From positions 2,232,001-2,296,000 of the forward strand of contig NZ_CP109178.1 in NCBI RefSeq assembly GCF_036248255.1: a stretch of 64,000 nt of DNA, in the 5' to 3' direction. Positions 33,890 to 63,340 of the stretch are shown here, piece after piece. The DNA is from Streptomyces sp. NBC_01717. GTDB taxonomy: Bacteria > Actinomycetota > Actinomycetes > Streptomycetales > Streptomycetaceae. The notes beneath the pieces were generated by a model that was not told the DNA's origin, did no database searches, and saw only the letters and a program-made list of their open reading frames with translations. The translations under genes and the position numbers were made by a program. Within the stretch, counting starts at the first letter, position 1. The number at the start of each line of letters is the position of its first letter.

Positions 33890-33948
33890 GTGCCCAGAGT
33901 GCCCCATTTTCGATCGCCACGACAAGCATTACCGGCCGGTGGGAACGG

Positions 33949-46196: not shown

Positions 46197-49100
46197 CGCG
46201 TACCTCCGCCGAGCTCGATCGAAAGCCGGCCCGGCTCGGGCCGGTCGGGGTCGTTGTCGCAACGCGCGATCTCCAGCGGGCCGAGCCGCAGCACGCCTGC
46301 CTCCAGTGCCGTGTCATCGAGTGGATCTTCGTGGAACAGTCGGCGTAGCCGGGTCACCCGTACGCTCTCCACGCCTTGCACCGCCGCGGCCACCGCCACC
46401 AGACGGCTGAGCCGCACCGGTTCACCGAAGGTCAGCGCGTCGGGATGGAAGAAGCCGAGACGTCCGCCGGTCAGCCGGCGGTTGCCGAGGAGTCGGTACA
46501 GCTCGGCGAGGATCTGGCCGTGCTGATGACCGGGCGCCGCGCACACCGCCAGCACGATGTCCAGCGGCACGGACCGCGCGGGCCCCACCACCAGGTCGTG
46601 CCCGATCCTGCGGTAGCTCTCCAGCGCGTACGCCACCGAGTCGAGCAGCTCGGGGGACGGTTCCCCCTCCCCCAGAGCGTCGACGGCGACGTGCGCCTCC
46701 TGCACACTGCCGGTCCAGCGGATCTCCGCGGCTGCCCGCTGCACCCCCGGGAGCTTTGTTGCCAGAGCCGCGTAGTCCTCGGCGGTGACGGCCCGCAGCC
46801 GGGTGCGCTTCAGGTCGAGCGGGGCGAGCTGACGCACTTGCTCGACCGGTTCGGGCTCCGTGCCGCCGACGGCGGGCAGCGGATTGCGTACGCCCGCCAC
46901 GGGCATCGGATCACCCGCGTCCGCGTCCCCGGGATCACGGCACAGCACCAGATGGTTGATGGCCTCGGCGCCGACATTGCCGGCGGTGCCGCCGCCGAGC
47001 CGGTAGTGCAGCTCCAGCCGGGCGCCCGGCTGCGGGCGGGCGCCGTGGCGCCCGTCCCCGAACCGCAGCGCGATCCGGCCGTCGTCCTCCAGCTCACCGA
47101 CGAAGTGGCGCTCGCGCGCACCCGAGTCGAGCAGATCCCGCTTCGCGGTCCACCACTTCTCGCCGTCCGCGACCGTCACGGCGGGAAGCGCGGCCCGCGG
47201 ATCCTGTACGAGCGCGGCCGCGGGACCCCGCAGCACCGGATCGTCCGGATCGATCCCCGCCGCGTACTCGGCGCCCCAGGTGTGGGTGATCTCCCAGGCG
47301 ATCGAATCGTCCAGCACCGCTCCGGCCCGCGCCCGGGCCGTCAGCACCTCCAGACGACGCAGCTTCGCGGCCAGCAGCCGTTCGCTGCGGTGCAGCAACT
47401 CCCGCAACGCGCGCACCGGATGACGGCGCAGCTCGAAACGCTCCAGCACGCGCAGCCCGAAGAGCACCGTCAGTTCGGCGATTTCGGGCTCCGTGAGTCC
47501 GTCGCAGTCGCGGGCGCTGCGCCACAGCTCCACCAGCCGCTGCCGGACGCGTCCGGGGATGACGGCCAGCCGGGTGGACTGTCCCGCCGAGACATGACGC
47601 GGGTCGGGGAACGGCACCGACTGGACGACGGGGAAGCGCTGCAGCACCGGCCGGAAGCGTGCCGGGATACCGGGGTAGACGACCTGAGCCAGCAGGGTCT
47701 CAAGCGCCTCGGCCTGCTCGTAGGCGGTACCGGGGACGACCTTCTCCCGTCGGCGACCGGCGAGTTCCAGGCCGAGACCGGCGCGTGCCGTCCGGTCCTC
47801 GCCGACGACGGTGAACAGCTCCCGTATCTGGTCAGCGGTCAGAAGCCGACCACAACGGGTCTGTTCCAGTGAGGCGTTGATGAGATCCGCTGTGGCGTTT
47901 CCCTCCTTGCGGTCCCAGCAGCCGAAGCCGGACGGATCGCAGGACCCGAGGACGGCGGGCGCGGGAGGCACGGTGGCCGTCTCCGACGTCCCCCCGCAGA
48001 ACGTCAGTGAGCGCCCGTGATCGACGAGCACCACATTCCCGCGCGCCACGCTCACATCCTCGACCGGCTCGCAGTCCGTGCCGCCCCGCGTCGACAGACG
48101 GACGGGGAAGGCCAGCGCGTCCTCCTGCGCCCAGGTGACCTCCAGTACCGGCTGGTCGACCAGCCGGTCCACGCCCGGCGTGACCGAGGTGAGGCGCACG
48201 GCCTGACGGTGGGCGGGGTCGGCGTCGCCCGGCGTGCCGGAGCGTGCCCCCAGCACCTCCTCGATCAGCAGCAGATCGCCAGGAGCCAGCTCCAGCGACC
48301 TGACCTGGCACTCCTCGTCCGCCCACGCATCCCGCAGTGTCGCGGACGTGACGCCCTTGGGCAGCGAGCACACCTCGTCGCCCCAGGTCCAGAAGCGGAT
48401 GGTGTTGTGCTCGGGGCGCAGCGCCAGCGGTTCGTCGGCCACGACCGGCTCGAACACCTCGACCGATCCTCGCTCGTCCAGTACGGCCAGGTCCCGGTCG
48501 TCGATGACGGTGCCGATCGCGGGCCTGTCGCGCGGCCCCAGGCTGCGGACGTCGACGGCCGCGAAGCGGTATGTGCCGGGCCCCAGCGTCAGCTCCCGTA
48601 CGGTCTCGACCGCGACGAAGGCACGTGCGTTGACGCCGTCGTGCATCGGGTAGTCGATGAGCCGCACATGGCGGCGTACGGAGACGCGGCGGCGGGCGGT
48701 GTCGAGATACGCCTCCGTGGCCACCGCGTCCTGCTGATAGCTGATCCGGTCGGCGGTGTGGGCGAGCAGCTCGACCAGCGTCGTGCCGAGGTCGGCAGGG
48801 TTGCGCTCCACCCAGTCCGGCGTGGTCAGCGCCAGCCGGTCCAGGATCAGGCGGCGGATCGTGTCGTAGTCGCGCGCGGTGTAGTCGATGACCGGCGCGG
48901 CGGGGAAGGCAGGCGGGCAGTCGGGCTGCTCGTCCTTGCAGTCGAAGGGGGTCGGGCAGTCGGGCCGGAAGTCGAACCCGGCGGAGAAGTACCGCTGGTC
49001 GAAGCCGGGAAAGGGCGCGGTGCCGGGCCGCCCGTACGGATCGGTGTCCACCACGGAGAGCGTGTACCGGGATGTGTCGCCGGTGCGGTCCAGCGTGACG

Positions 49101-49360
49101 TACAGCCGGTCGTCGAGCTCCGGGTCCTCCTCGCGCTCGACGGACACCTCGACGGCCTCGATGCCGGTGATCCGCCGGCCGCCGTCGATGCGTATGTTCT
49201 CCGGGCACAGCCCGTGGGGCGCCTTGCCGAGGAAGGTGACGGTGAGGGTCAGCCCGTCGTCACCGACCTCGACGGCGTCCACGCCCCCGAGCTGCGCAGC
49301 CCGTACCTTGACGCGCCTGCCGTCCGTACGGCAGACCAACTCGTTGCTCGTACCGCTCAT
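46193..49360 (-). CDS. Baseplate assembly protein, Pvc11-like
   Basis: A 1,055-residue gpJ-like baseplate wedge protein. The N-terminal ~130 residues are a beta domain with a Cys/Pro-rich loop (PDCPTPFDCKDEQPDCPP). Then comes the family block YTARDYDTIRRLILDRLALT, NPADLGTTLVELLAHTADRI, YQQDAVATEAYLDTARRRVS. Later HYRLGGGTAGNVGAEAINHL and RLRAVTAEDYAALATKLPGV are the gpJ-like core (~residues 800-900). Two adjacent large gpJ-like proteins are normal for Pvc/CIS baseplates. ATGA overlaps link it to gp25 upstream and to the Pvc12-like gene downstream. Confidence 0.83.
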   Translation of the reverse strand: MSGTSNELVCRTDGRRVKVRAAQLGGVDAVEVGDDGLTLTVTFLGKAPHGLCPENIRIDGGRRITGIEAVEVSVEREEDPELDDRLYVTLDRTGDTSRYTLSVVDTDPYGRPGTAPFPGFDQRYFSAGFDFRPDCPTPFDCKDEQPDCPPAFPAAPVIDYTARDYDTIRRLILDRLALTTPDWVERNPADLGTTLVELLAHTADRISYQQDAVATEAYLDTARRRVSVRRHVRLIDYPMHDGVNARAFVAVETVRELTLGPGTYRFAAVDVRSLGPRDRPAIGTVIDDRDLAVLDERGSVEVFEPVVADEPLALRPEHNTIRFWTWGDEVCSLPKGVTSATLRDAWADEECQVRSLELAPGDLLLIEEVLGARSGTPGDADPAHRQAVRLTSVTPGVDRLVDQPVLEVTWAQEDALAFPVRLSTRGGTDCEPVEDVSVARGNVVLVDHGRSLTFCGGTSETATVPPAPAVLGSCDPSGFGCWDRKEGNATADLINASLEQTRCGRLLTADQIRELFTVVGEDRTARAGLGLELAGRRREKVVPGTAYEQAEALETLLAQVVYPGIPARFRPVLQRFPVVQSVPFPDPRHVSAGQSTRLAVIPGRVRQRLVELWRSARDCDGLTEPEIAELTVLFGLRVLERFELRRHPVRALRELLHRSERLLAAKLRRLEVLTARARAGAVLDDSIAWEITHTWGAEYAAGIDPDDPVLRGPAAALVQDPRAALPAVTVADGEKWWTAKRDLLDSGARERHFVGELEDDGRIALRFGDGRHGARPQPGARLELHYRLGGGTAGNVGAEAINHLVLCRDPGDADAGDPMPVAGVRNPLPAVGGTEPEPVEQVRQLAPLDLKRTRLRAVTAEDYAALATKLPGVQRAAAEIRWTGSVQEAHVAVDALGEGEPSPELLDSVAYALESYRRIGHDLVVGPARSVPLDIVLAVCAAPGHQHGQILAELYRLLGNRRLTGGRLGFFHPDALTFGEPVRLSRLVAVAAAVQGVESVRVTRLRRLFHEDPLDDTALEAGVLRLGPLEIARCDNDPDRPEPGRLSIELGGGTR

Positions 49361-49734
49361 GCCGGGCCGCTCCCCTCGAACACGTCGTCGCGCCGGCTCG
49401 CGGTGGAACGCACCACGTAGCGCAGATACACCCGGACCACGTTCTCCTCGCTGACCACGTCCAGGGACTCCACCTCGATCAGCTCCCCCAGCCAGCGCTG
49501 CAGGGATGCCTGCACCGACAGCTCCAGCGCGGAGGCCAGTTCGGGGCTGTTGGGCGTGAAGACCAGATCGAGCAGCCCGCAGCCGAAGTCGGGGCGCATC
49601 ACACGCTCGCCGGGACTGGTGAACAGCAACTGCTCGATCAGGTCGCGTACGTGCTCGTCATGAGCCGCGTGCGCGGTGCGTCCCCGCCGGTCGGTCCGGA
49701 AGGGGAAGGCGATGTCGCTCCTCGTCCGCGTCAT
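49357..49734 (-). CDS. gp25-like baseplate protein (Pvc9-like)
   Basis: A 125-residue gpW/gp25-family baseplate protein. The family signature is HDEHVRDLIEQLLFTSPGER and VMRPDFGCGLLDLVFTPNSP, followed by LQRWLGELIEVESLDV and VYLRYVV. In T4 and contractile injection systems gp25 starts sheath assembly on the baseplate. The ATG at 49734 begins the family alignment (MTRTRSDIAFPFRTD) and overlaps the PAAR-like gene end by ATGA; longer in-frame starts are rejected for that reason. Confidence 0.9.
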   Translation of the reverse strand: MTRTRSDIAFPFRTDRRGRTAHAAHDEHVRDLIEQLLFTSPGERVMRPDFGCGLLDLVFTPNSPELASALELSVQASLQRWLGELIEVESLDVVSEENVVRVYLRYVVRSTASRRDDVFEGSGPA

Positions 49735-50108
49735 CGGGAGGACACCCCCCGTGCGGATGCGGTCACGACCGGCGGGCCCTGCGGCACGAGCGCGGCGCTG
49801 AAGCAGAGCGCTGACGAGCTCTCCAGCAGCACGGGCCGGCCGTCGATCAGCACACCACCACGCTCCGGCGTCCAGCGGACCGTCACGCACGGATGCGGTA
49901 CGCCGTCGACCGTGTGCCGACAGCCGCTCACCGCGAAGACATCCGTCGCGGCGGGCACGGACAGCCCGTCGATCCGGACTCCGGACGACGGGGCGGAGGC
50001 GGGCGTGACACGGCCGCCGTGCGGACAGCTGATCGCCGAGCCGCTGCTCACGAGATTCCCGGACACCACGTATCTCCCCGTTCCTGTCGTACTCGTCGCT
50101 GTGGTCAT
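49731..50108 (-). CDS. PAAR-like spike-tip protein (Pvc10-like)
   Basis: A 125-residue small beta protein. SSGSAISCPHGGRVTPASAP, VDGVPHPCVTVRWTPERGGV and ALCFSAALVPQGPPVV show the repeated strands and conserved Cys/His of DUF4280/PAAR-like tips, whose residues can bind metal at the cone end. It would cap the gpV spike. The gene lies between gpV and gp25 with four-base overlaps on both sides, as expected for Pvc10 in these operons. Confidence 0.8.
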   Translation of the reverse strand: MTTATSTTGTGRYVVSGNLVSSGSAISCPHGGRVTPASAPSSGVRIDGLSVPAATDVFAVSGCRHTVDGVPHPCVTVRWTPERGGVLIDGRPVLLESSSALCFSAALVPQGPPVVTASARGVSSR

Positions 50109-50632
50109 CGCTTCTTCGGCACGATCAGCCGGCCCTCGTTGATATTGACCTCGTCGCCGGTCAGCACGATCGACGCACCCTTGCCGGTGCCGATGGTCAC
50201 GCCCTTCTCATCTATCTGGATGTAGGCGCCGCCCTTGGCCTCCAGCAGAATCCCCGTGCCACCGGGCACGTCCGACATCACCAACTTGTGCTCGCCCGGT
50301 GTCTGGATCACCACCGGCTGCGATCCGGGCAGTTCCGCGCTTGCCCGGGGAGGCAGCTCCGAGGCGTCCCCGTACCAACTCCCGGTCCAGATCGGGAAGC
50401 TCGGATCGCCCTGTTCGAACTCCATCCACACTCCGGAGCCGATCTGCGGGACGACGTACTGCCCAGCGTGCCGGCCGGTGAACGGCAGACAGGGCAGCGC
50501 CCACGTGGAGGCCTCGTCGCCGAGCACGTCCGGCACCTGGGCCGTGATCCGGCCCAGCTTGAGCGGATCCCTGTTGTCGATCACCCGGCCCCGGAACTTG
50601 CCGAGAAACCGGTTGTTCGGTCCTGCAGCCAT
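50105..50632 (-). CDS. gpV-like spike protein (Pvc8 family)
   Basis: A 175-residue baseplate spike protein. Residues ~8-95 form the gpV/VgrG OB-fold (FLGKFRGRVIDNRDPLKLGR; VPQIGSGVWMEFEQGDPSFP), and residues ~105-175 a short beta-prism (GGAYIQIDEKGVTIGTGKGA, SIVLTGDEVNINEGRLIV). Three chains would form the membrane-piercing needle. In many systems Pvc8 fuses gpD and gpV; here they are split into two adjacent genes, gpD first. The gene has ATGA overlap with the PAAR-like gene, and 40 bases separate it from gpD. Confidence 0.88.
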   Translation of the reverse strand: MAAGPNNRFLGKFRGRVIDNRDPLKLGRITAQVPDVLGDEASTWALPCLPFTGRHAGQYVVPQIGSGVWMEFEQGDPSFPIWTGSWYGDASELPPRASAELPGSQPVVIQTPGEHKLVMSDVPGGTGILLEAKGGAYIQIDEKGVTIGTGKGASIVLTGDEVNINEGRLIVPKKR

Positions 50633-52158: not shown

Positions 52159-52824
52159 TTACAGCCCCCGTCCCAGACCGAGCTCGGCCAACCGACCGCC
52201 TCGCGCGGCGGCGGCGAGTCGTTCCTTCTGCGCCAGATGTGCGAGATACAGGTCGGCCCCGCGGTGCCCTGCGGGCAGATCACTCACGCTGAGCACCTTC
52301 ATGCCGATGCCGAGGCTCGCCCTGATCGGATTGAGACCGACGTCGAACGCCGACTCGTTGATGGACAGTTCGGTGAGCCGCACCGGCATGACGCGCTTGC
52401 TCCCCCAGGTGAAGAGAGTCAGCGGCATCTCGATCGGGCTGATCTCGATGGTGCCCTTCTGGGTTCGCCGGGAGGCCTCGCGGAGCTGGGCGCTGGTGGG
52501 ATGCACCAGCATCTCCAGCATCGCGAGCTGGGGATGGATCCCGTCGGGCGCGGCGACCTCGAACTGATCGGTGGCATCGATCTCGGCCGTGAACTTCCAG
52601 CTCTCCTCGGCAGGGCCCTTGAGCCGGAGAGCCTCGTTACGGTCCCCTCCACTTCCGCCTCCGCCGGCGTCACCGCTTCCGCCCGCGGATTGGGGCGCGA
52701 GGGAGCGTTCGAGGGTGTCGGGGTTGAACTGGAGGACGATGATGCGCTGAGGGGTTCCGCGCTCGGGGTCGACGACGACGATGCCGGAGCGGATGGGCTT
52801 GGGTATGTCTGCGTAGCGGACCAT
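52159..52824 (-). CDS. CIS tube/gp54-like tube-initiator protein (Pvc7-like)
   Basis: A 221-residue protein. The signature is VDPERGTPQRIIVLQFNPDT followed by LERSLAPQ, then a Gly-rich insert (GGSGDAGGGGSGG), WKFTAEIDATDQFEVAAPDG, LLV-type helices (LAMLEMLVHPTSAQLREASR) and VMPVRLTELSINESAFDVGL. This corresponds to the CIS-tube N-terminal domain of Pvc7/gp54-type proteins, without the LysM tail, which is encoded by the next gene. It caps the baseplate and starts tube assembly. It follows the HEAT-like gene, with 38 bases between. Confidence 0.82.
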   Translation of the reverse strand: MVRYADIPKPIRSGIVVVDPERGTPQRIIVLQFNPDTLERSLAPQSAGGSGDAGGGGSGGDRNEALRLKGPAEESWKFTAEIDATDQFEVAAPDGIHPQLAMLEMLVHPTSAQLREASRRTQKGTIEISPIEMPLTLFTWGSKRVMPVRLTELSINESAFDVGLNPIRASLGIGMKVLSVSDLPAGHRGADLYLAHLAQKERLAAAARGGRLAELGLGRGL

Positions 52825-52862
52825 TCCCTATCTTCCTGTTGTGAAACATACCGGAGCGGTGC

Positions 52863-53450
52863 TTACTGAATGTCGAGCTGCTCATAAACATCGAGGATGG
52901 TCCGCGCTTCCTCGCGGACTTCGACGGATGCATCGTTTCGCAGAGCTTCAGTCAGCATGGGAATGTATCTGCTGGACGGCGAATAAGTGGTGGCGAATAC
53001 TGCGGCCTTCCGCACTTCAGCACTCTCGTCCCGCAATGACTGATCGATGCTCGAAATGACGATTTCATTGTCTTGATTCGGTCCGCCGAGTGCTACGGAG
53101 AGAATGGCGCGGCGCCTTTCGTCCGGCGTCGTCGAATTTTCGAGATCAGCGAGCAGTTCGGACTGAGGTACCGGGTTCAAGTGGTTCTGCAAATGCGCCT
53201 GCATCGCGTGACAGGAGTTAATTGAATCGGCGGCCGCGAAGACATAGGGGCGTTGAGTGAAGTCGTCCGACATAAAATGCACGGCAACATCCTCGGAAAC
53301 CTGCCAGATACTTTCCTCGATCGTACCGCTTGCCGGATCCTCGGGAATGGTGGTCCCATCCCATCCGTAGCGATCTGTGTATTCTTGAACGGACCTCTTA
53401 GCCCTGTCCGTATCGCCGCGCAAAATCATTCGCCAGGAATAATGGATCAC
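52863..53450 (-). CDS. HEAT-like small protein, putative immunity partner of the giant DUF4157 protein
   Basis: A 195-residue acidic helical protein with HEAT-like repeats in its C-terminal half (RRRAILSVALGGPNQDNEIV, SSIDQSLRDESAEVRKAAVF, YIPMLTEALRNDASVEVREE). It is AT-richer than the rest of the operon. The GTG at 53450 is chosen: it is four bases after the stop of the giant gene, with GGAGG ten bases upstream inside that gene's end. An in-frame ATG at 53480 would overlap the giant gene by 26 bases and is less likely. HEAT proteins are not core parts of these systems. Position, size and base composition fit an immunity or chaperone gene for the preceding C-terminal domain, by inference. 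Confidence 0.6.
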   Translation of the reverse strand: MIHYSWRMILRGDTDRAKRSVQEYTDRYGWDGTTIPEDPASGTIEESIWQVSEDVAVHFMSDDFTQRPYVFAAADSINSCHAMQAHLQNHLNPVPQSELLADLENSTTPDERRRAILSVALGGPNQDNEIVISSIDQSLRDESAEVRKAAVFATTYSPSSRYIPMLTEALRNDASVEVREEARTILDVYEQLDIQ

Positions 53451-53454
53451 GGGT

Positions 53455-56400
53455 TCACGCCTCCGCGTCGAACTCATCAAGATGCATTCTCGTGCTGAGC
53501 GAGGACAGGAAGCCCTGATCGCTCGTCAAACTACTCGCTCCATACATATCCAGAATCCTTCGCCGAACCTCCAGTATCAGCTCATCCTGCTTCATCTTCT
53601 CGCCCCGGCTGTCTGCGACCTTTAGATCATCGAGCGACTTGAGCCACAGATCAACCGTGTGCAACTCGCGGCTGGCCAGACGGTTGGCCTCAGCGAACCC
53701 CTTGAACTTGGTGAGCGGACCACCCCCGGGCGTGTTCTCCTGGTCGCTGCTTGCATCCAGGTAATTCGACAGGGTTCGTGACCTGTTCTGAGATCTCTTG
53801 GGTTGCATCGCGAACATGCCGACACTGTTTTCCTGATTCTTTCCGGTCAGCCGATTGCCGTTCCTGTCTCGGGCCCAATCGTCGGCCACGGCGTCCGCGG
53901 GTGATGATTTGCCACGGTTCATCATGTCGACAACCATGCCATGGGTGGATAGCGCCGCGATATTCCGGTGCCCCTCCTGCTGAATCAGCCATGCCTTCAG
54001 CTGGAATGCCAGTGAGAGGTGTGCGCCCGAGGGGGCGCCGCCACGGGCAATCCTCATGATGTCGGACAGCAGGTCGGAAACGGCCTGAGGGCCGAGGTTT
54101 CTGCGCATCTCGGCCAGCCGGTCGGGGAGATCCTTGTAGGCCAGATCCTCCAATGGGTGACCAGGGAACTGCACCTTGACGATGCGATTCGCTCGCGGGT
54201 ATTTGCCTCCGCCCGGGTTGCGCTGTGCATCGAGCGTGCCGCCATTCGGAGTTTCCTGGCTGACGATGTCGCCCTTGGTGGGATCCAGATTCTGCCGATT
54301 TCGGTAGATGGCCTGCATCATTCCGCCCTTGGTTCCGTGCGGCTGCTGCTGAGACCCGCGTGTGGCGCCACCAGCCAGTGTCCGGTCCCGCTCCAGCTGG
54401 CTCATACCGCCGGCGCCGTGCATATCGTCGAGGCCACCCAAGTAGACCTCCAGCGACATCTGACGCAGCGCGCGAAGCAACCGATTTGCCTCCACCCGGA
54501 CGCCGGCGATGTCGACTGTCTGGCCCAGGACCACTGGTTCCTGTGGATTCAGCGCCGCGGTGATGGTGAACCGCTCGGCCGTTCCATAGGCCAGGCTGGT
54601 CAGCCGATACCACAGGCGCATGGCAGCGAGCGCCGACCGAAGCCCGATTCCGCGGACGCCCTTACGAAGCATGGTCTGGAGGCGTGGACGGATGCGAGAA
54701 ACGATCTTCTGGAGGCGGGCCTCCTTGGACTCCTTGGACTTCTCGTCCTTCCTCCGCTTGTCCTGGTTCTGCTTCTTCTGGTCCTGCTGGTTCTTCTTGT
54801 TGTCGCGCAGGTTGTCGCGCTTCTGCTTGAAGACGTTGCGCAGCTTCGACGCGCTGTTCTTCAGCGCCTTGCCCGGCTTGCTCTTCTTGAGCTTCTTGCC
54901 CAGCGTCTTCGCCGCGTTGCGGACCTTCGTCAGGGCCGACTTGACGGCCTTCTTCGCCTTGCCCAGGGCGTTGCCCAAAGGAGACTTCGGCTTCTTGGGC
55001 TTGGTCGGCTTCGGACCCTCGATTTCCCTCTTGTTCTTGGGAGTCCGGGGGGTGCTGTCCTTCTGGCCGTCCGGGGTCTTGTCCTTCGACGGACCCGGTG
55101 TCGTCTCCTTCGGCTTCGCCGGTGTCGGCTCCGGCTTCGCAGGGGACTTCGGCGTCGCCGTGTCCTTCGGTTTGGGCGGGGCCTTCGGGTTCGGGGAAGG
55201 CTTCGCCTTCGGCTTTGGGGACACGGCCGGCTTGTGCAGGGTCTGCTTGGCGTTCCGGATCGCGCCCCGCGCCTTGTTGACCGCCTCACCGGCCGCCTTC
55301 TTGGCGCCCTTGCCCGTCTTCTTGAGGCCCTTCATGATCCTCTCGGCCATCGCCTTGAGGCGTTTGCCGACCCCCTTGGTCGCCGAACCGAGGCGCTGCA
55401 GGAGGAAGTTGGCGATGAAGTCGAGCAGCGCGACAACGCCTGCGGCCACCGCCTCCGCGAACAGACAGGCCGCCGGGCCCGCCTTGACCGCCTTCAAGTA
55501 GGCCCAGAATTTGCTGAAGGCCGAGAGGATCGAGCTGACGCTCTGCCAGGCCGACATCAGGCCCTGGACGATCGTGAGGATCGCTCCCGCCGCGGGGACG
55601 ATCATCGAGACGACCTTCTCGATCACGAGCGAGGCGATCATCATCGGCAGCGAGGCGATGATCGCGTCCCACGCCATCTTCCCGATCTGCTTGATCGAGA
55701 CGCAGCCCTTCACCAGGACGTCGATCACGGCCTTGCCCAGGCCGAGGATGCCCTCGACCTTGGTGTCGAACCACCGCTTCACGCCCGTCTTGATGGCGCC
55801 CCAGAGGTGATCGGTGATGCCCGTCTTCGCCGAGCTGCCCGCCTTGCTGATCCAGCCACCCGGGTCCGGTGCGATGTCCGCCACAAGAGCCGCGAACTTG
55901 CCCAGCGCCTCGATCGCCGCCTGGGCGAACTTGATCGCGCCCAGAATCACGGCCTGGTAGATCTTGATGACGGCCTTGATGCCCGCTTCCAGCACGTCGA
56001 GCAGCGCGTTCAGGCCCGCCGCCAGGGCGTCGAGCAGGGCGTTCACTGCCTTCTTCAGACCGTCCGCCAGCGCGTTGACCGCCGCGATCGCCTTGTCCCG
56101 CAGGCCCTCGATCGCCTTGCGGAACTTGTCCCGTAGCTCGGGGAAGGCCGCCAGCAGTACGTCGCCGATGGCGATCAGCGCATCCGCCAGGACGTTGATC
56201 GCCTTGATGGCGAGGTCCCGTACGAAGTCGATGGCCTTGTTGGCCCAGTCCTTGAACGTGTCGATGATGCCGTTGACAAGCTTGCGCGCCGCGTCGAAGA
56301 CCTTGGTGACCGCGTCGAGGATCGCATTGAAGGCGCTCTTCACCTTGTCGGCGACCCAGCCGAAGAAGCCTCCCGAGGGCTTCTCCTCCTCCTTCTTCTT

Positions 56401-59400
56401 CTCGGCCTCCTTCTCCGCCTTCTCACGCTCGGTGTCGATCTGCGCGTTGTCCTTGTCCTTGCGGTCGCTGACCTCCTTGTCCTTGTCGTCGCGGGCCTTG
56501 ACGATTTCCTTGTTCTTCTCGGTGTGTTCCTTCTCGGACTTCCTGTCCGCGTCCTCGATCTTCTGGTCCTGCTCGGTGCGCCAGCTCTCGCGCTCGCGCT
56601 GGGCATCCTCCGCCGCGCGGCCGCGCTCGCCCGTCTGCTTCTCCGCGTTCCGGGTGACTTCGCGGTCGATCTCGGTCTGCTTCTCCTGCTTGGCCTGCTG
56701 CTCGCCCTGCTGCTGTTCCTTCTCCTTGGCGACCAGGTCGCCCTGAGCCTGGCCCGCGGCTCCCTGCATCTCGCTGCCGCGCTCCTGCTTGGCGACCGCA
56801 CCGACGCCGGGCTTGGGCTTGGATCCGGCCTGGAGTCCGCCCCCGCCGCCCCGTTTTCCGCCTGCCGTGGCCTTGCCGACCAGCTGCTCCTGGGGCGCGT
56901 TCGGGAAGATCTGGTCCTCGCCCATCGGCTTGGCCGCGTCCTCACGGCCTGTGCTCTGGATGTCGGACTGCTTCTCCTTGAGCGCCTTGGCCTGGTCGTC
57001 CGTGCGCTTGGGGTCGCTCTCGCCCTCCAGCCGGATCTTGGGGGCGGGGCCGACCGTCTTGTTCTGCAGTTCCGGGTCCACGGTCGGGACCGCGTCGGCC
57101 GCGGCGTCGACGTTCTTGGCCTCTTCCGCGGTCAGCTTGTCCGCCACGGGCGCCGGCGGCGGGGGAGTGTTGTCGGTGGGCTTCGCGCCCTCCGCCTTCT
57201 CACTGCCCTTGGCCTTCTGCTTCCCGATGCGGTCCTCGGGCCCGAGCTTCTCGACCTTGCCCGTCACCTGTTCGGCCGGAGCGGCCGCCTCGGGCGGGCC
57301 CGACCGAGTCTGCGGCGCACCCGAAGGACGTTCCCGCTTCGGTGGGTTGGCGTCCAGCCGCCGCTGCTCCTCGCCGACCTTCTTGTCCGCCGCGGCGTCC
57401 ACACCGGGCATGGCGGCTGCGGCCTGGTCCGGCGCCAGCTTGCTGACCGTCCCGATGGCGGCCTTCGGGTCCTGGCCCGAGACGTCCGGCGGCTCCTCCT
57501 GCTTCTCCTCGGGAGCGGCTCCACCGCCGCCTCCGCCGCAGCTGCCGCCTCCCTCTTCCTTCTCCGCCGCGGGCTCAGGCGGGGCGCAGCCGCCGCCGTC
57601 CTTCTCCAGCGACGCCTCGGGAGCAGCCTGGGCACCTTCCGGTGCGGGCGCGCCCATCCTGCCGGGGCTGTCGGTCTGTTCGCCCGCAGGGCTGACCGCC
57701 GCCTGTGCCGCGGACGGGGCCGCGCCAGGTCCCGCCGCGGCCGTCGGACCGGCCTGCTCGCCGCCGCCGACCGTCCCACGGGGAGCCGCACCGGGGCCGG
57801 TCTCCTTGGGGATCCGGCTCTGAGGTCCGGCCGCTTCCCGCTCGGACCTGGGCGGCTCGGCGTCACGCCGCGCTGCGGGGGAAGGGTTTCGGTCCTCGGC
57901 GGGCGCCTTCTGCGTCTGCGCACCCGCGGGCCGCATCGCCGCCGGGCCGGGCGACATGTCCGGCGCGGAAGCGCCCTGCGGCTGCCCCTGTTCGCCTCGC
58001 TGTTCCTGTTGCCCGCGCTCCTTCAGCTCCTGCTGCTCGTCCTGCGCGTCCTTGGCGTCCGGCCGCTCCTCGCCTTCGCCGGAGTCCTCGCCCCTGTCCT
58101 CCTGGTCCTGCTGCTGCGCAGGGTCCGTCTTCTCAGCCTCGGGCTCCTGCTGGTCCTTCTCAGTGGTCTCCGGGTCGGGGCCGACCTCCTGATCGGTCGG
58201 CTTCTCCGGCTGCAGGTCCTTCGCGCTGCGGTCCTGGGCCTCGGCCGCGGGCCCGCCCTCGGGCTTCGGAGCCTCGCCCTCGACCGGACCCACGTCCTCG
58301 CCCGGCGCCTTCGCCTCAGGCCCGGCGGAGTCCTCGTCCTCCTCGTTCGCCTCGTTCTCCCGCTGCTGCTCGACCCGTTCCGCCTTGGTCGGGGGCGGCG
58401 AAGGGAAGGTCGGGACGGACGGTTCCGCGGCGCCGGGGGTCATCCGGTCTGCGGTCGGTACGGAAGAAAGGTCCAGGTCGGTGTCGGGCAGATAGTCCTC
58501 GGGCTTCAGCTCCGGACCGCTCTTGGCGGCACCGCCCCTGTCATCGTCCTGCTCGCCGCCGATCTCCCCGTCCGCGCCCGCCTCCAGCCCGAGCGGCTTC
58601 TCCTCCTCGCGCGGCTCGTCCTCATCCTCGTCCTTCTCGTGCAGGCCGTGCTCGGACAGCGCGCTGTCCCGCTGCTCAGCCCGCTCGTCCACCTTCTCGG
58701 GGCGTACGGGACCGGGCCGGCCCTTCGCCTTCGGGTCGAGGTTCTCCTGCTTCGATCCGTCCGCCGGCTTCTTCGCGTCGTCGTTCCGCTTGCGCTTGTC
58801 TGCACCGGGGGCGTTCGCCTGCTCCGGGTCCTGCTCCTCCCGGTCGCGCTGCTCCTTGCGCTCCTCCTTGGTCTGCTCGGCGCCGTCCGCCTGGCCCTGC
58901 GCGCGCTCGTCCGCGGCCTCGTCGACCCGCTGACGGTCCTGGCCCTGCTTCTCCTCCTCCTGCCGCTGCTCCTGCGCGGCCTGCTGCCGGGACTGGGCCC
59001 GCTCGTCCTCCTGCTCCTTGCGCTGGGCAGCCTCCTGGTCCTCGGCCGCCGCGTCGGAGCGCGCCCTACTCCGGTCGCCGCTGCGCTTCTCGTCCCGTAC
59101 CGCGGCGTCCTTCTGCTCCTCGCGCGAGTCCTCGGCCTGCTTGTCCTTCGAACTCCGCCCGCTCTCCTCCTGCCGCTTCCACCGGGTGCGCTCGACACCC
59201 AGCAGCTCGAAGAGGTCCGTCTCCGGCTCGGGCACCTCGGCCGGCTGGAGGTCCACCGGCTCGGTCTCGGACTCCTCGGCGAGGTCGAGGAGCCGCTCGT
59301 ACTCGTCGGAGAGCAGCCGCACTTCCAGCCGGTCCAGCACCGAGTCCTGCAACTGCGGTGACATCCGTGCCAGTTGGAGTCGTACGCGTCCCGACAGGTC

Positions 59401-60018
59401 CGCCGGGTCACCGCGCAGCGAGCGCAGCACGCCGTTCGCGAGACGGTCCACCAGCGTTGCCGGATCCAGCTGTTCCATACGGGAGCGGTCGGCGTCGACC
59501 GTGGCGTACCGCAGCCAGCCGGGCGTCGATTGCTCGGGCTCCACTTCGGGGGCCTGCTGCTCGTCGCGTACGAGAGCCTGCGCCGCCGACTCCGCCTCGC
59601 GCTCCATCGCCTGCTGCGGAAGGCTCACCGCCCCCAGATCGCGGCCCGCGCGCAACGCGCCCAGACCGTCCGGGTTCTGCACCGTGTGCAGCAGCTCATG
59701 GGCGAGCAGCCGCTGCCCGTCCGCCGTACCCGGGCGATAGGCACCCTCGCGGAAGAAGATGTCCTGGCCGACCGCGACCGCGTCCGCGCCCAGCAGTTCC
59801 GTCAGCGTGCCCGCGTCCCGGTCGGTGTGCAGGCGTACCCGGCTGAAGTCGTGGCCGAGCCGCTCCTCCAGCTCCCGCCGTACGCTCAGATCGAGCGGAT
59901 GTCCGGCTCCGCTGACGATGTTCTTCGGCTCCGGCGTCCGGGACGTGGCGCGCTCCTTGCGCTTGCGCCGCCGTTCGGCCTGGGCCGCCTGCGCGTCCTG
60001 CGCATGTGACGTACTCAT
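53455..60018 (-). CDS. Giant DUF4157 (HExxH) protein, candidate payload of the injection system
   Basis: A 2,187-residue protein. Residues ~35-115 form DUF4157 (GHPLDLSVRRELEERLGHDF; HELLH at 107-111), a metalloprotease-like module frequent in eCIS-associated effectors. Residues ~270-1,210 are a Glu/Gln/Lys/Arg/Pro-rich, low-complexity, probably disordered and coiled region. About 1,215-1,545 are amphipathic helices (FFGWVADKVKSAFNAILDAV; MIASLVIEKVVSMIVPAAGA) that resemble tape-measure or pore-forming segments. A Pro/Lys linker (~1,600-1,650), a basic helical part and an unrecognised C-terminal domain (~1,850-2,187) follow. No core CIS protein has this layout. ATGA overlap joins it to the 98-residue gene upstream. 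The C-terminal domain is a candidate toxin. Confidence 0.85.
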   Translation of the reverse strand: MSTSHAQDAQAAQAERRRKRKERATSRTPEPKNIVSGAGHPLDLSVRRELEERLGHDFSRVRLHTDRDAGTLTELLGADAVAVGQDIFFREGAYRPGTADGQRLLAHELLHTVQNPDGLGALRAGRDLGAVSLPQQAMEREAESAAQALVRDEQQAPEVEPEQSTPGWLRYATVDADRSRMEQLDPATLVDRLANGVLRSLRGDPADLSGRVRLQLARMSPQLQDSVLDRLEVRLLSDEYERLLDLAEESETEPVDLQPAEVPEPETDLFELLGVERTRWKRQEESGRSSKDKQAEDSREEQKDAAVRDEKRSGDRSRARSDAAAEDQEAAQRKEQEDERAQSRQQAAQEQRQEEEKQGQDRQRVDEAADERAQGQADGAEQTKEERKEQRDREEQDPEQANAPGADKRKRNDDAKKPADGSKQENLDPKAKGRPGPVRPEKVDERAEQRDSALSEHGLHEKDEDEDEPREEEKPLGLEAGADGEIGGEQDDDRGGAAKSGPELKPEDYLPDTDLDLSSVPTADRMTPGAAEPSVPTFPSPPPTKAERVEQQRENEANEEDEDSAGPEAKAPGEDVGPVEGEAPKPEGGPAAEAQDRSAKDLQPEKPTDQEVGPDPETTEKDQQEPEAEKTDPAQQQDQEDRGEDSGEGEERPDAKDAQDEQQELKERGQQEQRGEQGQPQGASAPDMSPGPAAMRPAGAQTQKAPAEDRNPSPAARRDAEPPRSEREAAGPQSRIPKETGPGAAPRGTVGGGEQAGPTAAAGPGAAPSAAQAAVSPAGEQTDSPGRMGAPAPEGAQAAPEASLEKDGGGCAPPEPAAEKEEGGGSCGGGGGGAAPEEKQEEPPDVSGQDPKAAIGTVSKLAPDQAAAAMPGVDAAADKKVGEEQRRLDANPPKRERPSGAPQTRSGPPEAAAPAEQVTGKVEKLGPEDRIGKQKAKGSEKAEGAKPTDNTPPPPAPVADKLTAEEAKNVDAAADAVPTVDPELQNKTVGPAPKIRLEGESDPKRTDDQAKALKEKQSDIQSTGREDAAKPMGEDQIFPNAPQEQLVGKATAGGKRGGGGGLQAGSKPKPGVGAVAKQERGSEMQGAAGQAQGDLVAKEKEQQQGEQQAKQEKQTEIDREVTRNAEKQTGERGRAAEDAQRERESWRTEQDQKIEDADRKSEKEHTEKNKEIVKARDDKDKEVSDRKDKDNAQIDTEREKAEKEAEKKKEEEKPSGGFFGWVADKVKSAFNAILDAVTKVFDAARKLVNGIIDTFKDWANKAIDFVRDLAIKAINVLADALIAIGDVLLAAFPELRDKFRKAIEGLRDKAIAAVNALADGLKKAVNALLDALAAGLNALLDVLEAGIKAVIKIYQAVILGAIKFAQAAIEALGKFAALVADIAPDPGGWISKAGSSAKTGITDHLWGAIKTGVKRWFDTKVEGILGLGKAVIDVLVKGCVSIKQIGKMAWDAIIASLPMMIASLVIEKVVSMIVPAAGAILTIVQGLMSAWQSVSSILSAFSKFWAYLKAVKAGPAACLFAEAVAAGVVALLDFIANFLLQRLGSATKGVGKRLKAMAERIMKGLKKTGKGAKKAAGEAVNKARGAIRNAKQTLHKPAVSPKPKAKPSPNPKAPPKPKDTATPKSPAKPEPTPAKPKETTPGPSKDKTPDGQKDSTPRTPKNKREIEGPKPTKPKKPKSPLGNALGKAKKAVKSALTKVRNAAKTLGKKLKKSKPGKALKNSASKLRNVFKQKRDNLRDNKKNQQDQKKQNQDKRRKDEKSKESKEARLQKIVSRIRPRLQTMLRKGVRGIGLRSALAAMRLWYRLTSLAYGTAERFTITAALNPQEPVVLGQTVDIAGVRVEANRLLRALRQMSLEVYLGGLDDMHGAGGMSQLERDRTLAGGATRGSQQQPHGTKGGMMQAIYRNRQNLDPTKGDIVSQETPNGGTLDAQRNPGGGKYPRANRIVKVQFPGHPLEDLAYKDLPDRLAEMRRNLGPQAVSDLLSDIMRIARGGAPSGAHLSLAFQLKAWLIQQEGHRNIAALSTHGMVVDMMNRGKSSPADAVADDWARDRNGNRLTGKNQENSVGMFAMQPKRSQNRSRTLSNYLDASSDQENTPGGGPLTKFKGFAEANRLASRELHTVDLWLKSLDDLKVADSRGEKMKQDELILEVRRRILDMYGASSLTSDQGFLSSLSTRMHLDEFDAEA

Positions 60019-60311
60019 CGAGACTCGCCCCGCCCCGAGAGTCCCGCGTGCACCGCACGCGCCAGCGCCTCACCGAGCCGCCCCGGCGAGGTGGTCGAAG
60101 GCAGCGGCGGCAGTCCGGACAGTGCGTCCAGGGCCTGGCCGCCGTCAGCGGCCAGCGGCACGCCACGCTCCCGTACGAGCCGGGACAGCTCCGCCTCGAA
60201 AGCGGCCGAGACCCGGTCGGGGTCGAGCCGCTCGAAGCCGTCGAGCACCAGCTCGCCGATGTCCACGCGGATCGTGCGCTCCGAGGGGCGCGGTACCTCG
60301 TTCAGACCCAT
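60015..60311 (-). CDS. Small conserved CIS-operon protein
   Basis: A 98-residue protein: RTIRVDIGELVLDGFERLDP, then DRVSAAFEAELSRLVRERGV and LGEALARAVHAGLSGRGESR. Short proteins with the pattern I.V.I..LVLDGF..D....AFE.EL.RL occur between the AAA+ ATPase and downstream genes in many contractile-system operons; their role is not established. The gene overlaps the ATPase stop by 10 bases and the giant gene start by four, so all three are translationally coupled. Confidence 0.72.
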   Translation of the reverse strand: MGLNEVPRPSERTIRVDIGELVLDGFERLDPDRVSAAFEAELSRLVRERGVPLAADGGQALDALSGLPPLPSTTSPGRLGEALARAVHAGLSGRGESR

Positions 60312-62464
60312 CCGTGGACCTCCGAGGGTGTCAAGGAGCGGTCCAGCTTGAGGTATTCGGTACGCGCCGCCTCCAGCATGTGACGCATCTGGAGCCGGTC
60401 GCCCTCCTCCGCCGCGAGGAAGGCTCCCGACAGCGCGATATTGCGAATCGAGCCCCCCGCCACGGTCAGCCGGGCCAGCTGCTCGGGATCGATGTCCTTC
60501 ATCGGGGCCCGCGCGGGCAGCACCCGCCGCCAGATCTCGGCGCGCTCGCTCTCGCCGGGGAAGGGGAAGTCGACGACGAAACGGATACGCCGCATGAACG
60601 CCGTGTCCAGCGCCTGCTTCATGTTCGTCGTGAGGATCGCGAGCCCCCGGTACGCCTCCATCCGCATCAGCAGATAGCTGACCTCGAGGTTGGCGTACCG
60701 GTCATGGCTGTCCTTGACCTCGCTGCGCTTGCCGAACAGGGCGTCGGCCTCGTCGAACAGCAGCAGCGCGCCGCCTCGTTCAGCCGCGTCGAAGACCTTG
60801 CGCAGATTCTTCTCGGTCTCGCCGATGTACTTGCTGACCACCTGCGAGAGATCGATGATGAACAGATCCAGGCCAAGCTCCTTGGCCATCACCTCGGCGG
60901 CCAGGGTCTTTCCGGTGCCGGAGCCGCCGGCGAAGAGTGCGGTGACGCCGAGTCCGCGGCGCAGCGTCTCGGCGAAGCCCCACTCCTGGTACACGGTCGA
61001 GCGCTGACGCACATGCGCGACGATCTCGCGCAGAATCCGCAGCTGCCGCTCGGCCAGCACCAGATCGCCCCACGCCGCCTGCGGCTCGATCCGCCGTCCC
61101 AGCTCGTCCATGCCCATCCGGGCCTCGGTGAGCCCGGCACGCCAGGCCAGACCGGTCGCGTCCACCTCGTCCTCGCCGGGCAGATCCCGTACGACCGTCG
61201 CTCCGGCGGACTGGATCAGATGCGGCGGCAGCGAGAACTGCGCGACGAGATCCCGCAGATCGTCCTCGCTCACCTCCGGTACGTCCGCGAACGCGTCGGC
61301 CCACACGCCCAGTTGCTCCTCCGTGTCCAGCGGCGGCACGGTCACGCGCTCGCCGCGTGGACGGGCGGTCTGCCGGGGATCGGGGCTGGAGACGACGAGC
61401 GGAACGGCCGCGCTCTCGATGAACGCGTCCGTGGCCGCCGCCTGGTCGCGGTCGAGCTCGCCGACCTCGACGAGCAGCGCGGCGGGCAGCATGACGGCCT
61501 CGCGCTGCCACAGCCGTGCCAGCCGGTCGCGCTCGGCCGGATCGGTGGGCATGTCGTCGGCGGCCATGGCGTACAGACCGAGCCCCGAACGGCGCGCCGC
61601 CGCCGCGGCGATGTCGGTACGGGTCCGCAGATCGCCGCCGACGAGCTCGATCCGGAACGGAGCATGCGGCCCGGCACCCGCCCAGCCCGCGGCGACCTGG
61701 CTCGCCGCCAGGTCGTACGAGGCGGGCAGCGACTCCGGTACGGGCGCACGGCGCAGCAGTCCGTGCAGTCGGGAGTCCAGATAGGGCGAGCCGACGAGGA
61801 AGTGCAGGATGCGCTCGTCGAGGCGCAGCCGTGAGGTGGTCAGCCGGGTCTCGTCGTCGAGCTCGACGAGCCGCCAGCGGCGCAGCGGGGCGACGGGGGT
61901 GAGGGCGCTCCAGTGCGCACCGTCGAGGGCGGCGAGGGCGAGCGAGAACGTGGGGTGGGCGCGCTCGGGGTCCCCGCCGGCGGCGGCACACCGCCCACCG
62001 GTGGTGGGGTCGAGCTCCGCGGCGGCGGCGAGCAGGACGACGTCGCGCTCGAAGGGGCTGAGCCCGAAGCAGGCGACGAGCGAGTCGAGCGTGGCGGGCG
62101 CGCGCACACCGGGGGCGGCCGGTTCGCCTCCGGCTGGGGCGGTGGGGGTGCTGCCTTCGGCAGTGAGTTCGCTCTGTCGCGGGGGCGCTGCGGCGCCCGC
62201 GTCGCCGTCTCGCCGGACGGGCTCGGCCGCGGCCTTCGCGGCGGGGCGCTCCGCACCGGCGCCCGGAACGGCACCGTCCGCGGGTGCGGCCCCCGCGTGC
62301 GGCTGGTCCGCGGTGCCCTGTCCGGAGCCGGGCCCGCCGGGGCGGCCCTGTGCCCGGGCCGCGTGGGCGTCCACGCGGGCGAGCACGGATCGTACGGCCG
62401 CGAACAGCGCCCGTCCGTCCGCACCCGCGTTCGCCGACGTACCAGTTGACTCATACGTCCCCAT
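60302..62464 (-). CDS. AAA+ ATPase of the contractile injection system (Pvc15-like)
   Basis: A 720-residue AAA+ protein. Residues ~35-125 are a Pro/Ala-rich disordered linker. A helical region follows (LDSLVACFGLSPFERDVVLL; HFLVGSPYLDSRLHGLLRRA). The AAA+ core is near residues 485-660, with Walker A FAGGSGTGKTLAAEVMAKEL (~515), Walker B ALLLFDEADALFGKRSEVKD (~568) and sensor ILTTNMKQALDTAFMRRIRF. Pvc15-type ATPases are thought to load effectors or help assembly. The start is the ATG at 62464 (MGTYESTG); a further upstream start at 62491 is possible. It follows DUF4255 by 33 bases. Confidence 0.9.
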   Translation of the reverse strand: MGTYESTGTSANAGADGRALFAAVRSVLARVDAHAARAQGRPGGPGSGQGTADQPHAGAAPADGAVPGAGAERPAAKAAAEPVRRDGDAGAAAPPRQSELTAEGSTPTAPAGGEPAAPGVRAPATLDSLVACFGLSPFERDVVLLAAAAELDPTTGGRCAAAGGDPERAHPTFSLALAALDGAHWSALTPVAPLRRWRLVELDDETRLTTSRLRLDERILHFLVGSPYLDSRLHGLLRRAPVPESLPASYDLAASQVAAGWAGAGPHAPFRIELVGGDLRTRTDIAAAAARRSGLGLYAMAADDMPTDPAERDRLARLWQREAVMLPAALLVEVGELDRDQAAATDAFIESAAVPLVVSSPDPRQTARPRGERVTVPPLDTEEQLGVWADAFADVPEVSEDDLRDLVAQFSLPPHLIQSAGATVVRDLPGEDEVDATGLAWRAGLTEARMGMDELGRRIEPQAAWGDLVLAERQLRILREIVAHVRQRSTVYQEWGFAETLRRGLGVTALFAGGSGTGKTLAAEVMAKELGLDLFIIDLSQVVSKYIGETEKNLRKVFDAAERGGALLLFDEADALFGKRSEVKDSHDRYANLEVSYLLMRMEAYRGLAILTTNMKQALDTAFMRRIRFVVDFPFPGESERAEIWRRVLPARAPMKDIDPEQLARLTVAGGSIRNIALSGAFLAAEEGDRLQMRHMLEAARTEYLKLDRSLTPSEVHGWV

Positions 62465-62497
62465 ACCCTCACCCGCCCCCGTGTCGCGCACCGTGTC

Positions 62498-63340
62498 TCA
62501 GCTCTCCTTGTCGTCCGCGCCCGCTTCGGTGCCTTTCCGGGCACGAGCGGGCGCGGCCCGTTTCGCCACGGGCTTCGCGGCAGCCTTCGCGGTCTTGGCC
62601 GCGGCGCGCTTTCGCGTGGGAGCGGCCGCCTTTGGCGCCACGTCAGGCGCGGCCTCCGGTTCGGGCGAGGGCTCGGGCGAGGTCTCGGGTTCCGCGGCCT
62701 CCGGCCGCCCCGGCGGCACCGGCGCGCCTGGTGCCCCGAACGGCAGCACCTTCACCGTCCGCCGCTCCACCGGCTTCGCCGGGACCGGCCTCTCGCGGCC
62801 CTCGATCAGGACCAGCGACGCCTGATACGCCACCGACAGGGTGTACGGGGTCTGGTGGAGCATCCCCCACAGCTTCGACGTCTCGTCGATGTCCATCACC
62901 GTCGGCGTGAACCGCACCTTCTGCGGCGAGTCCGCCAGATCAGTGCCCGCGAGATACGGCCGCTCCGCCGCGAGTTCGATCAACTCCTTCGGCAGCAACG
63001 GGATTTCGTGGAGTGTCCGCACCACGCAGCCGATCAGCCGATGCCCGACCAGCTCCGCCTCCTCCCCGTACGCGCTGATCAGAAAATGCAGATCCAGCGC
63101 GGTGGCGGGCCGCTTGAGCAGCGTGCCGTCCGATGCGCGCGTCGGCAGGTCGGTGTGGCGCATCGAGGGGTTCGGGGTGACCTGGTACAGGAAGACGTTG
63201 ATGGTCGGCTCGGCCGGCGGCTCGGCCGGCGGTTTACGGGTCTCGACCTTTACCGCGATGTCCATCTCGGGGCTCAGGTTGTTCTCGATCAGCAGGGCCA
63301 GTGCCTGGGTGACCGTCGCGATGGCGAGTGCGTTGCTCAT
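62498..63340 (-). CDS. DUF4255 protein, tail-terminator/cap (Pvc16-like)
   Basis: A 280-residue protein. Residues ~1-195 form DUF4255 (ALAIATVTQALALLIENNLS; INVFLYQVTPNPSMRHTDLP; ALDLHFLISAYGEEAELVGH; YTLSVAYQASLVLIEGRE), the Pvc16 cap/terminator family that closes the distal end of the sheath-tube. The remaining ~85 residues are a Pro/Ala/Lys-rich disordered tail. It sits four bases after the preceding gene and 33 before the ATPase. Its presence, with gp25, gpV and PAAR, identifies the cluster as an eCIS. Confidence 0.88.
   Translation of the reverse strand: MSNALAIATVTQALALLIENNLSPEMDIAVKVETRKPPAEPPAEPTINVFLYQVTPNPSMRHTDLPTRASDGTLLKRPATALDLHFLISAYGEEAELVGHRLIGCVVRTLHEIPLLPKELIELAAERPYLAGTDLADSPQKVRFTPTVMDIDETSKLWGMLHQTPYTLSVAYQASLVLIEGRERPVPAKPVERRTVKVLPFGAPGAPVPPGRPEAAEPETSPEPSPEPEAAPDVAPKAAAPTRKRAAAKTAKAAAKPVAKRAAPARARKGTEAGADDKES

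Follow-up and report, generated by a model that had tools for sequence, protein, structure and literature searches.

A Tme-type contractile injection effector of Streptomyces with an exchangeable C-terminal tip and a covarying HEAT-repeat partner

The locus described here raises the question of whether a giant effector of a contractile injection system (CIS) carries an exchangeable toxic tip together with a matching immunity gene. It lies in a 64,000 nt stretch of the genome of Streptomyces sp. NBC_01717 (contig NZ_CP109178.1, 2,232,001–2,296,000), hereafter the window, and all coordinates are positions within it. On the minus strand of the window, a CIS operon has a gene for a protein of 2,187 aa and a small gene for a HEAT-repeat protein placed between an AAA ATPase gene and a CIS tube-like gene. 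An earlier note on this DNA had proposed a payload with a toxin tip and an immunity gene. Our comparison with relatives indicates that the locus is very probably a polymorphic toxin–immunity system on a tape-measure-type CIS effector, in which a large superfamily of tips, termed ExxR, is paired with HEAT proteins. The architecture, the exchange and the covariation are established by sequence comparison; we infer that the giant is delivered, that its tip is toxic and that the HEAT protein neutralises it.

The giant protein combines an N-terminal DUF4157 domain containing a HELLH motif with a tape-measure-like segment that matched PHROG tape measure families and holds hydrophobic stretches between residues 1269 and 1541 (Table 1). 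The earlier description of a DUF4157 giant with tape-measure-like helices inside a CIS operon was thus borne out. The closest published counterpart is the tapemeasure-related effector Tme of Streptomyces davawensis (BN159_7576; PMC11126660); this and the other cited papers are compared through the parts of them that were covered. The group definition of Tme-like proteins is a long open reading frame (ORF), DUF4157 and synteny. An ORF of 2,187 aa in a CIS cluster, an N-terminal DUF4157 and a location upstream of the tube and baseplate genes were all found here, and by that definition the giant is classed as a Tme-type effector on its sequence. The 10.2 Mb host genome had a single match each for eCIS_core, the tip and the HEAT gene.

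Exchange was seen in DNA comparisons with two strains, Streptomyces sp. ISL-98 (L092) and NBC_01481 (L093), each of which shares 95% identity with the window over the tape-measure segment. DNA identity with ISL-98 was 88.6% up to residue 1772 and resumed from position 52819 at 86.6%, with a further upstream piece at 80.9%. With NBC_01481 it was 87.6% up to residue 1605, 77.8% over residues 1660–1778 and 91.7% again from position 52832, placing the 3' break five bases inside (ISL-98) or eight bases before (NBC_01481) the tube gene. Between the breaks, ISL-98 has a tip of family T2 with a 266 aa HEAT_2 partner, and NBC_01481 has a T4 tip with a SUKH-4 partner. A like pattern was found at locus L019 of set 1 (below), with an Endonuclea_NS_2-like tip. 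At the protein level, the relative P0012 was 91–98% identical to the window over residues 801–1500, 55–69% over the linker at 501–800, 45–60% over 1601–1800 and only 17–32% from residue 1801. The reverse case was P0003, with a tip 39–48% identical, residues 201–1800 at 19–46% and residues 1–200 at 82–83%. In P0012, ISL-98 and NBC_01481 the C terminus was therefore not conserved at the rate of the rest, and the last two retain the flanks and not the cassette, in agreement with the exchangeable C terminus suggested by the earlier note. The giant shows the polymorphic-toxin pattern, in which a conserved carrier is followed, past a conserved delimiter, by a C-terminal domain that can be exchanged. 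The alignments indicate that the tip is replaced along with its partner, the two forming a single lower-GC cassette that runs from the neck to the start of the tube gene; recombination is the presumed cause.

Base composition follows the same division. Residues 1–1600 of the giant had a GC content of 0.707 and a third-position GC (GC3) of 0.903, compared with 0.613 and 0.745 for the tip (residues 1831–2187) and 0.546 and 0.628 for the HEAT gene. In 357-codon windows moved in steps of 10 over residues 1–1766 the GC3 minimum was at least 0.852, and the fall begins at about the neck, residue 1767. Both the drop near the end of the giant and the AT-richer 195-residue HEAT-like gene four bases beyond it had been reported from the sequence, and both were confirmed.

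To examine the arrangement more widely, three sets of loci were used. Set 1 comprised 40 loci chosen solely for an eCIS_core match in an ORF of at least 1,700 aa, among the matches listed from 392 same-genus genomes; set 2 comprised 20 loci retrieved with HEAT-gene homologues as the starting point, and was left out of the shuffle statistic as biased; set 3 was the best 80 of 153 loci found by the tape-measure segment. Sets 1 and 2 with the window form a first collection of 61 loci, with the neck profile positive in 47. The other 14 were dropped: three were short at contig ends (L034, L035, L038), five had no neck found (L032, L039, L042, L047, L049) and six were HEAT genes without a giant (L069, L070, L073, L076, L084, L087). 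In set 3, 59 of the 80 loci had a neck and a complete end and 21 were neckless, two of these being cut. Removal of 12 duplicates between the collections gave 94 distinct loci, among which the 19 complete neckless loci of set 3 are not counted. In all 94, the GC3 of both tip and partner was below that of the backbone (up to 636 codons before the neck), with means of 0.73, 0.71 and 0.92 respectively.

A partner was defined as an ORF starting between −60 and +130 bases from the giant's stop and extending at least 330 bases beyond it. Among necked loci, such an ORF came directly after the giant in 47/47 from the first collection and 59/59 from set 3, and, under a looser rule of 240 bases, it did so in 19/19 complete neckless loci. 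For the 94 distinct loci, the partners assigned were 173–414 aa long, with starts from −59 to +58. Applied to random points inside giants, the rule gave an ORF of at least 170 aa at 114 of 470 points; given how often spurious ORFs arise in high-GC DNA, the bare count therefore says little, and weight is placed instead on the 91 of 94 partners that belong to a family common to at least two loci.

The neckless loci have features of their own. In 18 of the 21 from set 3 (among L142–L168), an endonuclease-like tip family, with a motif RMHLLP..LGG....NLVPA read by eye, is shared together with a partner family of ~230 aa, forming a second, neckless Tme class. L095 stands alone among the neckless loci; the L039/L095 tip (Streptomyces sp. 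CB03234) appears nucleotidyltransferase-like by eye, without a supporting Pfam match.

The 94 distinct loci fell into 12 tip families mapping onto 11 partner families. ExxR tips with a HEAT partner accounted for 50 loci, followed by nuclease-like tips with a ~234 aa partner (14 loci), T2 tips with a different partner family (eight; HEAT_2 in L011 and L092, both members scanned), T3 tips with a ~407 aa partner (seven) and T4 tips (five; SUKH-4 partner in L027 and L093, both members scanned). Three further tip/partner families occurred at two loci each and three single pairs at one locus each, and a single tip, L125, in which the conserved E and R are also present, was found with the window's HEAT partner family. 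The HEAT gene followed all 50 tips of the ExxR family (14 of these loci were fetched for their HEAT match and another is the window itself), so that it is neither absent nor unlinked in relatives with the same tip. Among the 79 loci not chosen for a HEAT match, 748 pairs had the same tip and the same partner, none had the same tip and different partners, 35 had different tips and the same partner (L125 against 35 loci) and 2,298 shared neither; no shuffle out of 5,000 reached 748, the maximum being 295. An earlier, coarser clustering of 32 loci gave 88 concordant pairs and no discordant pair (0/10,000 shuffles). An untrimmed clustering had joined nearly all tips through the neck and gave way to one with 45 residues trimmed.

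Pfam scans of representatives (10 + 10 tips and 10 + 10 partners) gave recognised toxin and immunity domains in the same slot of some relatives, the window's own tip having none. Above the cut-off were ADPrib_exo_Tox, an ADP-ribosyltransferase, in the L130 tip (E 8e-9), a BMT5-like methyltransferase in the L133 tip (E 3e-32) and, among partners, SUKH-4 in L027 and L093 (E 3e-15 and 2e-17) and HEAT_2 in L011 and L092. Below it were Endonuclea_NS_2 in the L019 tip (E 1e-4), HNH (E 0.01) and NCBIfam IscB (E 2e-5) in the L025 tip, Tox-REase-9 in the L023 tip (E 0.08) and SMI1/KNR4-like in the L133 partner (E 7.5e-4). Most other scanned tips and partners had no meaningful Pfam match. L133 (8849–9661) is in itself an observation of a BMT5-like rRNA uridine-N3-methyltransferase domain as a CIS effector tip.

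Two comparisons bear on shared descent, which the shuffles disregard. Covariation within the ExxR/HEAT family was assessed by a mirror-tree comparison of 48 of its 50 members (two lacked a segment), with the tube gene and the tape-measure segment as controls. The rank correlation between tip and HEAT distances was 0.474 (reached in 0/5,000 shuffles), as compared with 0.069 between tip and tube gene (915/5,000), 0.048 between tip and tape-measure segment (945/5,000) and 0.273 between the two controls. With the closest pairs removed (tip identity < 0.35), tip–HEAT remained at 0.39 and the controls at 0.05 and 0.04. Across sets 1 and 2 (45 of 47 loci, 990 pairs), identity of the N-terminal part correlated with that of the tip at 0.07 and of the partner at −0.01, and tip with partner at 0.35; for HEAT pairs alone (300) the values were −0.06, −0.17 and 0.32. 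The prediction that the HEAT gene and the C terminus co-vary was therefore supported, and a downstream partner gene covarying with the tip is a further polymorphic-toxin feature.

The tip itself had no match in Pfam, NCBIfam, PHROG or PDB sequences, as the earlier note had anticipated in calling the C terminus unrecognised. The profile of its family reached no PDB chain up to E 5, and 24 family members against Pfam gave just three isolated matches (E 0.02–0.08); a cyanobacterial member, L138, matched Ntox17 below the cut-off (E 0.03). In 51 aligned tips E2015 was present in all and R2018 in 50 (H in L138), suggesting a candidate active-site pair, and Y1961 was conserved in 49 and G1993 and W2125 in 44. 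ExxR members were found in Streptomyces, Kitasatospora, Wenjunlia, Streptoalloteichus, Nucisporomicrobium and Mangrovihabitans. Two more, L138 and L140, lie on contigs of cyanobacteria and have weak necks of 15 and 26 bits. As a single-sequence query the tip found no relative in the named genomes and six matches, its own genome included, in the 392 same-genus genomes. The family appears rare outside the genus, because its profile matched the window's own genome alone among 296 genomes drawn over the phylum. Two short stand-alone proteins were related to the tip, one of which, P0019, was used in the alignment only. The DRGH motif of Tme was found in none of the 62 first-collection tips (47 loci and 15 database proteins; the five neckless giants of that collection were left out), nor in the 59 necked and 21 neckless loci of set 3. 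Two giants, P0005 and P0013, carry a precomputed match to the newer Pfam family PF27499, which may already cover part of the ExxR giants, perhaps the tip, because both proteins are members of the ExxR tip cluster. Apart from this annotation on two members, the tip superfamily is unmatched to known ones.

The HEAT gene, four bases past the TGA of the giant, has a putative GTG start at position 53450, with GGAGG 9 nt upstream as read by eye, and other possible starts lie further upstream (205 aa ORF). Its protein has a net charge of −16 and a pI of 4.6, and matches Pfam HEAT_2 just above the cut-off (E 2e-6). The predicted structure (pLDDT, the predicted local distance difference test score, 90.8) has an alpha/beta N-terminal part and C-terminal helices; W49, the sole invariant residue among 26 aligned HEAT partners, sits in the former. 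Profile comparison gave matches to alphaRep/HEAT chains, which were also best-ranked in a Foldseek search with the model that returned nothing at E ≤ 0.001. The HEAT_2 match, the helical C-terminal half of the model and the profile matches together support the HEAT repeats that characterise the Imm-HEAT class. All 50 HEAT partners are acidic (net −4 to −24), and 43 of the 50 ExxR/HEAT pairs combine a basic tip with an acidic partner. Of 37 places with a HEAT homologue, 25 abut a giant, six do not and six were left out. The six without a giant, from the 20 loci fetched around HEAT matches, had neither a neck nor a related tip in the ~11 kb fetched, and two adjoin short frames matching the tube gene; they are probably either orphan immunity genes or remnants of CIS loci that have decayed.

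Several of these properties have published counterparts. Tme, with 2,247 aa (from the Tme-C range 2030–2247), resembles the giant in size, N-terminal DUF4157, tape-measure-like hydrophobic helices and a site upstream of baseplate genes; it co-elutes with CIS baseplate proteins, and its C-terminal domain is a functional endonuclease that is toxic in Escherichia coli (PMC11126660). Unlike in the window, the Tme tip is EndA-like with a DRGH motif, a property of the Tme type protein rather than of the group definition; the window tip has neither a Pfam match nor DRGH. The words immunity and antitoxin do not occur in the main text of that paper, whereas here a partner follows the giant and covaries with its tip. 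Sle1-type effectors likewise have a tape-measure-derived carrier and mutually dissimilar C termini, and in one tested case, Micromonospora RS14790/RS14785, the immunity gene is directly downstream of the effector (PMC13277306). They differ in belonging to another CIS lineage, lacking DUF4157 and pairing with Sle2, which has the core domain; in the giant, DUF4157 is part of the same protein. The sections of that paper covered contain no survey of tip–partner covariation.

More distant parallels are the PVC-metallopeptidase polymorphic toxins, in which a DUF4157-type domain is joined to variable toxin domains and Imm-HEAT is listed as an immunity class with Ntox34 and Tox-REase-7; the Ntox34 motifs given are not ExxR, and a notable proportion of PVC systems have no adjacent immunity gene (PMC3482391). 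A haloarchaeal type VI secretion system has a DUF4157 toxin followed by a gene allowing its expression, tested in vivo (PMC11566945); it differs in being archaeal, with no tape-measure fusion in the passages covered and a tape-measure homologue reported as not found. Toxins associated with extracellular contractile injection systems (eCISs) combine DUF4157, a long linker and a C-terminal toxin, with one toxin–immunity pair tested (EAT5); the passages found contain no HEAT-repeat partner, "heat" occurring in other senses or not at all (PMC8213781, PMC11297309). Tdi5a is an immunity protein with HEAT-like repeats (PMC13392607). Among the literature titles and abstract openings searched (outside supplements, preprints, most subscription papers and PMC8163846), there was no HEAT partner of a CIS effector and no Tme tip–partner covariation. 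The payload with an exchangeable tip put forward by the earlier note is thus supported by comparison, but its carrier is not of a new kind, given Tme (PMC11126660) and the DUF4157/linker/toxin architecture (PMC8213781). Likewise, the proposed pairing of a tip with a putative immunity gene in a Gram-positive CIS is supported, with its novelty limited by Imm-HEAT (PMC3482391) and by the Sle1-type pair in an actinobacterial CIS (PMC13277306). On the sequence evidence, what is new is a variant of polymorphic toxins on a known carrier, with a tip superfamily not matched to a known one.

In the mechanism that we propose, the DUF4157 end and the tape-measure helices would load the giant and carry it across a target membrane, as published work has suggested for Tme. 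The toxic domain would be the tip that follows the neck, the HEAT protein would bind and block this tip in the producer and its kin, and tip and partner would be swapped jointly as the lower-GC cassette between the neck and the start of the tube gene. Since the tips are mostly basic and the HEAT partners all acidic, the target may perhaps be nucleic acid; this is a weak hint and the charge pattern is no proof of it, because other cassette families look alike in charge.

A number of points weigh against this reading. Toxicity of the tip and rescue by the HEAT protein are both things that we infer, the window tip has no recognised fold or family, and its AlphaFold model from 10 sequences was poor (mean pLDDT 44.8, predicted template modelling score 0.30) and was not used further. 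Seven of the 50 pairs deviate from the basic tip/acidic partner pattern. There is an unexplained weak link between the HEAT gene and the tape-measure segment (rho 0.134, 25/5,000), and the shuffle counts are not probabilities, because the loci are related by descent. In the trimmed clustering the HEAT-paired L026, L028, L030, L045 and L086, as well as P0007, P0010 and P0011, did not fall in the main cluster; it took the larger sample and profile merging to bring the five loci into the tip family, and L125 did not join it even then. The covariation is equally compatible with a partner that serves its tip as a dedicated chaperone or loading adaptor, either holding it unfolded or docking it in the tube; a partner of this kind would be adjacent to, specific for and co-diverging with its tip, and HEAT repeats bind proteins in general. 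We consider this improbable: two partner families match SUKH domains (one below the cut-off), the partner families are unrelated in sequence whereas the loading machinery is conserved, and the HEAT copies at six loci, with no giant in the ~11 kb fetched, would be useless as chaperones.

Published work on Tme and on the Streptomyces coelicolor CIS stresses self-directed and developmental roles: the endonuclease activity of Tme-C promotes extracellular DNA release and sporulation in S. davawensis (PMC11126660), and the S. coelicolor eCIS mediates intra-strain lethality (PMC10020575). By analogy with what has been proposed for Tme and Sle1, the tip could be an endogenous developmental effector, with the HEAT gene as a brake on self-damage and no role between strains. 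This is doubtful, since the window and the two strains with 95% identical tape-measure segments hold three unrelated tip/partner pairs, and such turnover is expected of conflict rather than of a developmental role common to the strains. On a further reading, the site would be a recombination hot spot with ordinary turnover of genes, and tip and partner would be unrelated low-GC hitchhikers; this would account for their low GC3. It was rejected as scarcely credible because no two loci in the sample shared a tip family while differing in partner family, and because of the specific co-divergence of tip and HEAT protein.

For the preferred toxin–immunity reading, the consequences concern Streptomyces CISs in general, which have mostly been read as developmental or self-directed. 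Every complete Tme locus examined in which the end of the giant was detected had a slot for a tip-specific partner. This argues that the payloads of many Tme-type CISs have been shaped by inter-bacterial conflict, and suggests that CIS machines carry diversified weapons against close relatives. In a broader proposal, which we regard as evenly balanced, the Tme-type CISs found in Streptomyces and certain relatives would be weapons of kin discrimination with a fixed tape-measure backbone and strain-swapped cassettes. ExxR/HEAT, the most frequent of the dozen or more types sampled, would then represent a toxin superfamily so far unrecognised and new in its activity. The survey also provides a list of candidate toxin–immunity pairs, headed by ExxR/HEAT, and competing strains whose cassettes do or do not match offers a way to ask whom Streptomyces CISs hit.

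Table 1. Features of the CIS locus in the window
Feature	Position	Strand	Basis
Pvc16_N protein of CIS	62498..63340	-	Pfam
AAA ATPase of CIS	60302..62491	-	Pfam
Tme-type giant CIS effector, 2,187 aa	53455..60018	-	ORF, Pfam, PHROG
eCIS_core / DUF4157 (PF13699), residues 41-117	59668..59898	-	E 8e-28
HELLH motif, residues 107-111	59686-59700	-	within eCIS_core
Long linker, residues 118-1212, parts variable among relatives	56383..59667	-	sequence, relative comparison
Tape-measure-like helical segment, residues 1213-1560	55339..56382	-	PHROG tail-length tape measure families, best E 3e-14
Second low-complexity linker, residues 1561-1766	54721..55338	-	sequence
Conserved neck, 64 residues, 1767-1830 (RIRP..WYRLT..LNP), delimits exchangeable part	54529..54720	-	profile
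5' exchange boundary, homology to L093 and L092 ends (residues 1778 and 1772)	54685..54703	-	DNA alignment
Exchangeable tip, 357 aa, residues 1831-2187, ExxR superfamily, without recognised domain	53458..54528	-	library searches, clustering
E2015-x-x-R2018, candidate active-site pair	53965..53976	-	conservation in 51 aligned tips
HEAT-repeat partner, 195 aa, putative immunity protein	52863..53450	-	ORF, Pfam HEAT_2
3' exchange boundary, homology to L092 and L093 resumes	52819..52832	-	DNA alignment
CIS tube-like protein, a conserved neighbour that served as a control	52159..52824	-	Pfam CIS_tube E 0.0018, below cut-off
CIS baseplate/spike genes (OB spike, gp25, Baseplate_J)	46193..50632	-	Pfam

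The order of genes on the minus strand is Pvc16_N, AAA ATPase, giant, HEAT gene, CIS tube-like, OB spike, gp25 and Baseplate_J, and the sheath, tube and T4_baseplate genes lie just past the right edge of the window. An N-acetylmuramoyl-L-alanine amidase gene (37748–38632, minus strand; Amidase_2, E 1.3e-23), located close to the cluster's 3' end, could be a wall-opening accessory. A Uma2-family gene (33332–33925, minus strand; PF05685, E 9e-20) was found downstream of the cluster.

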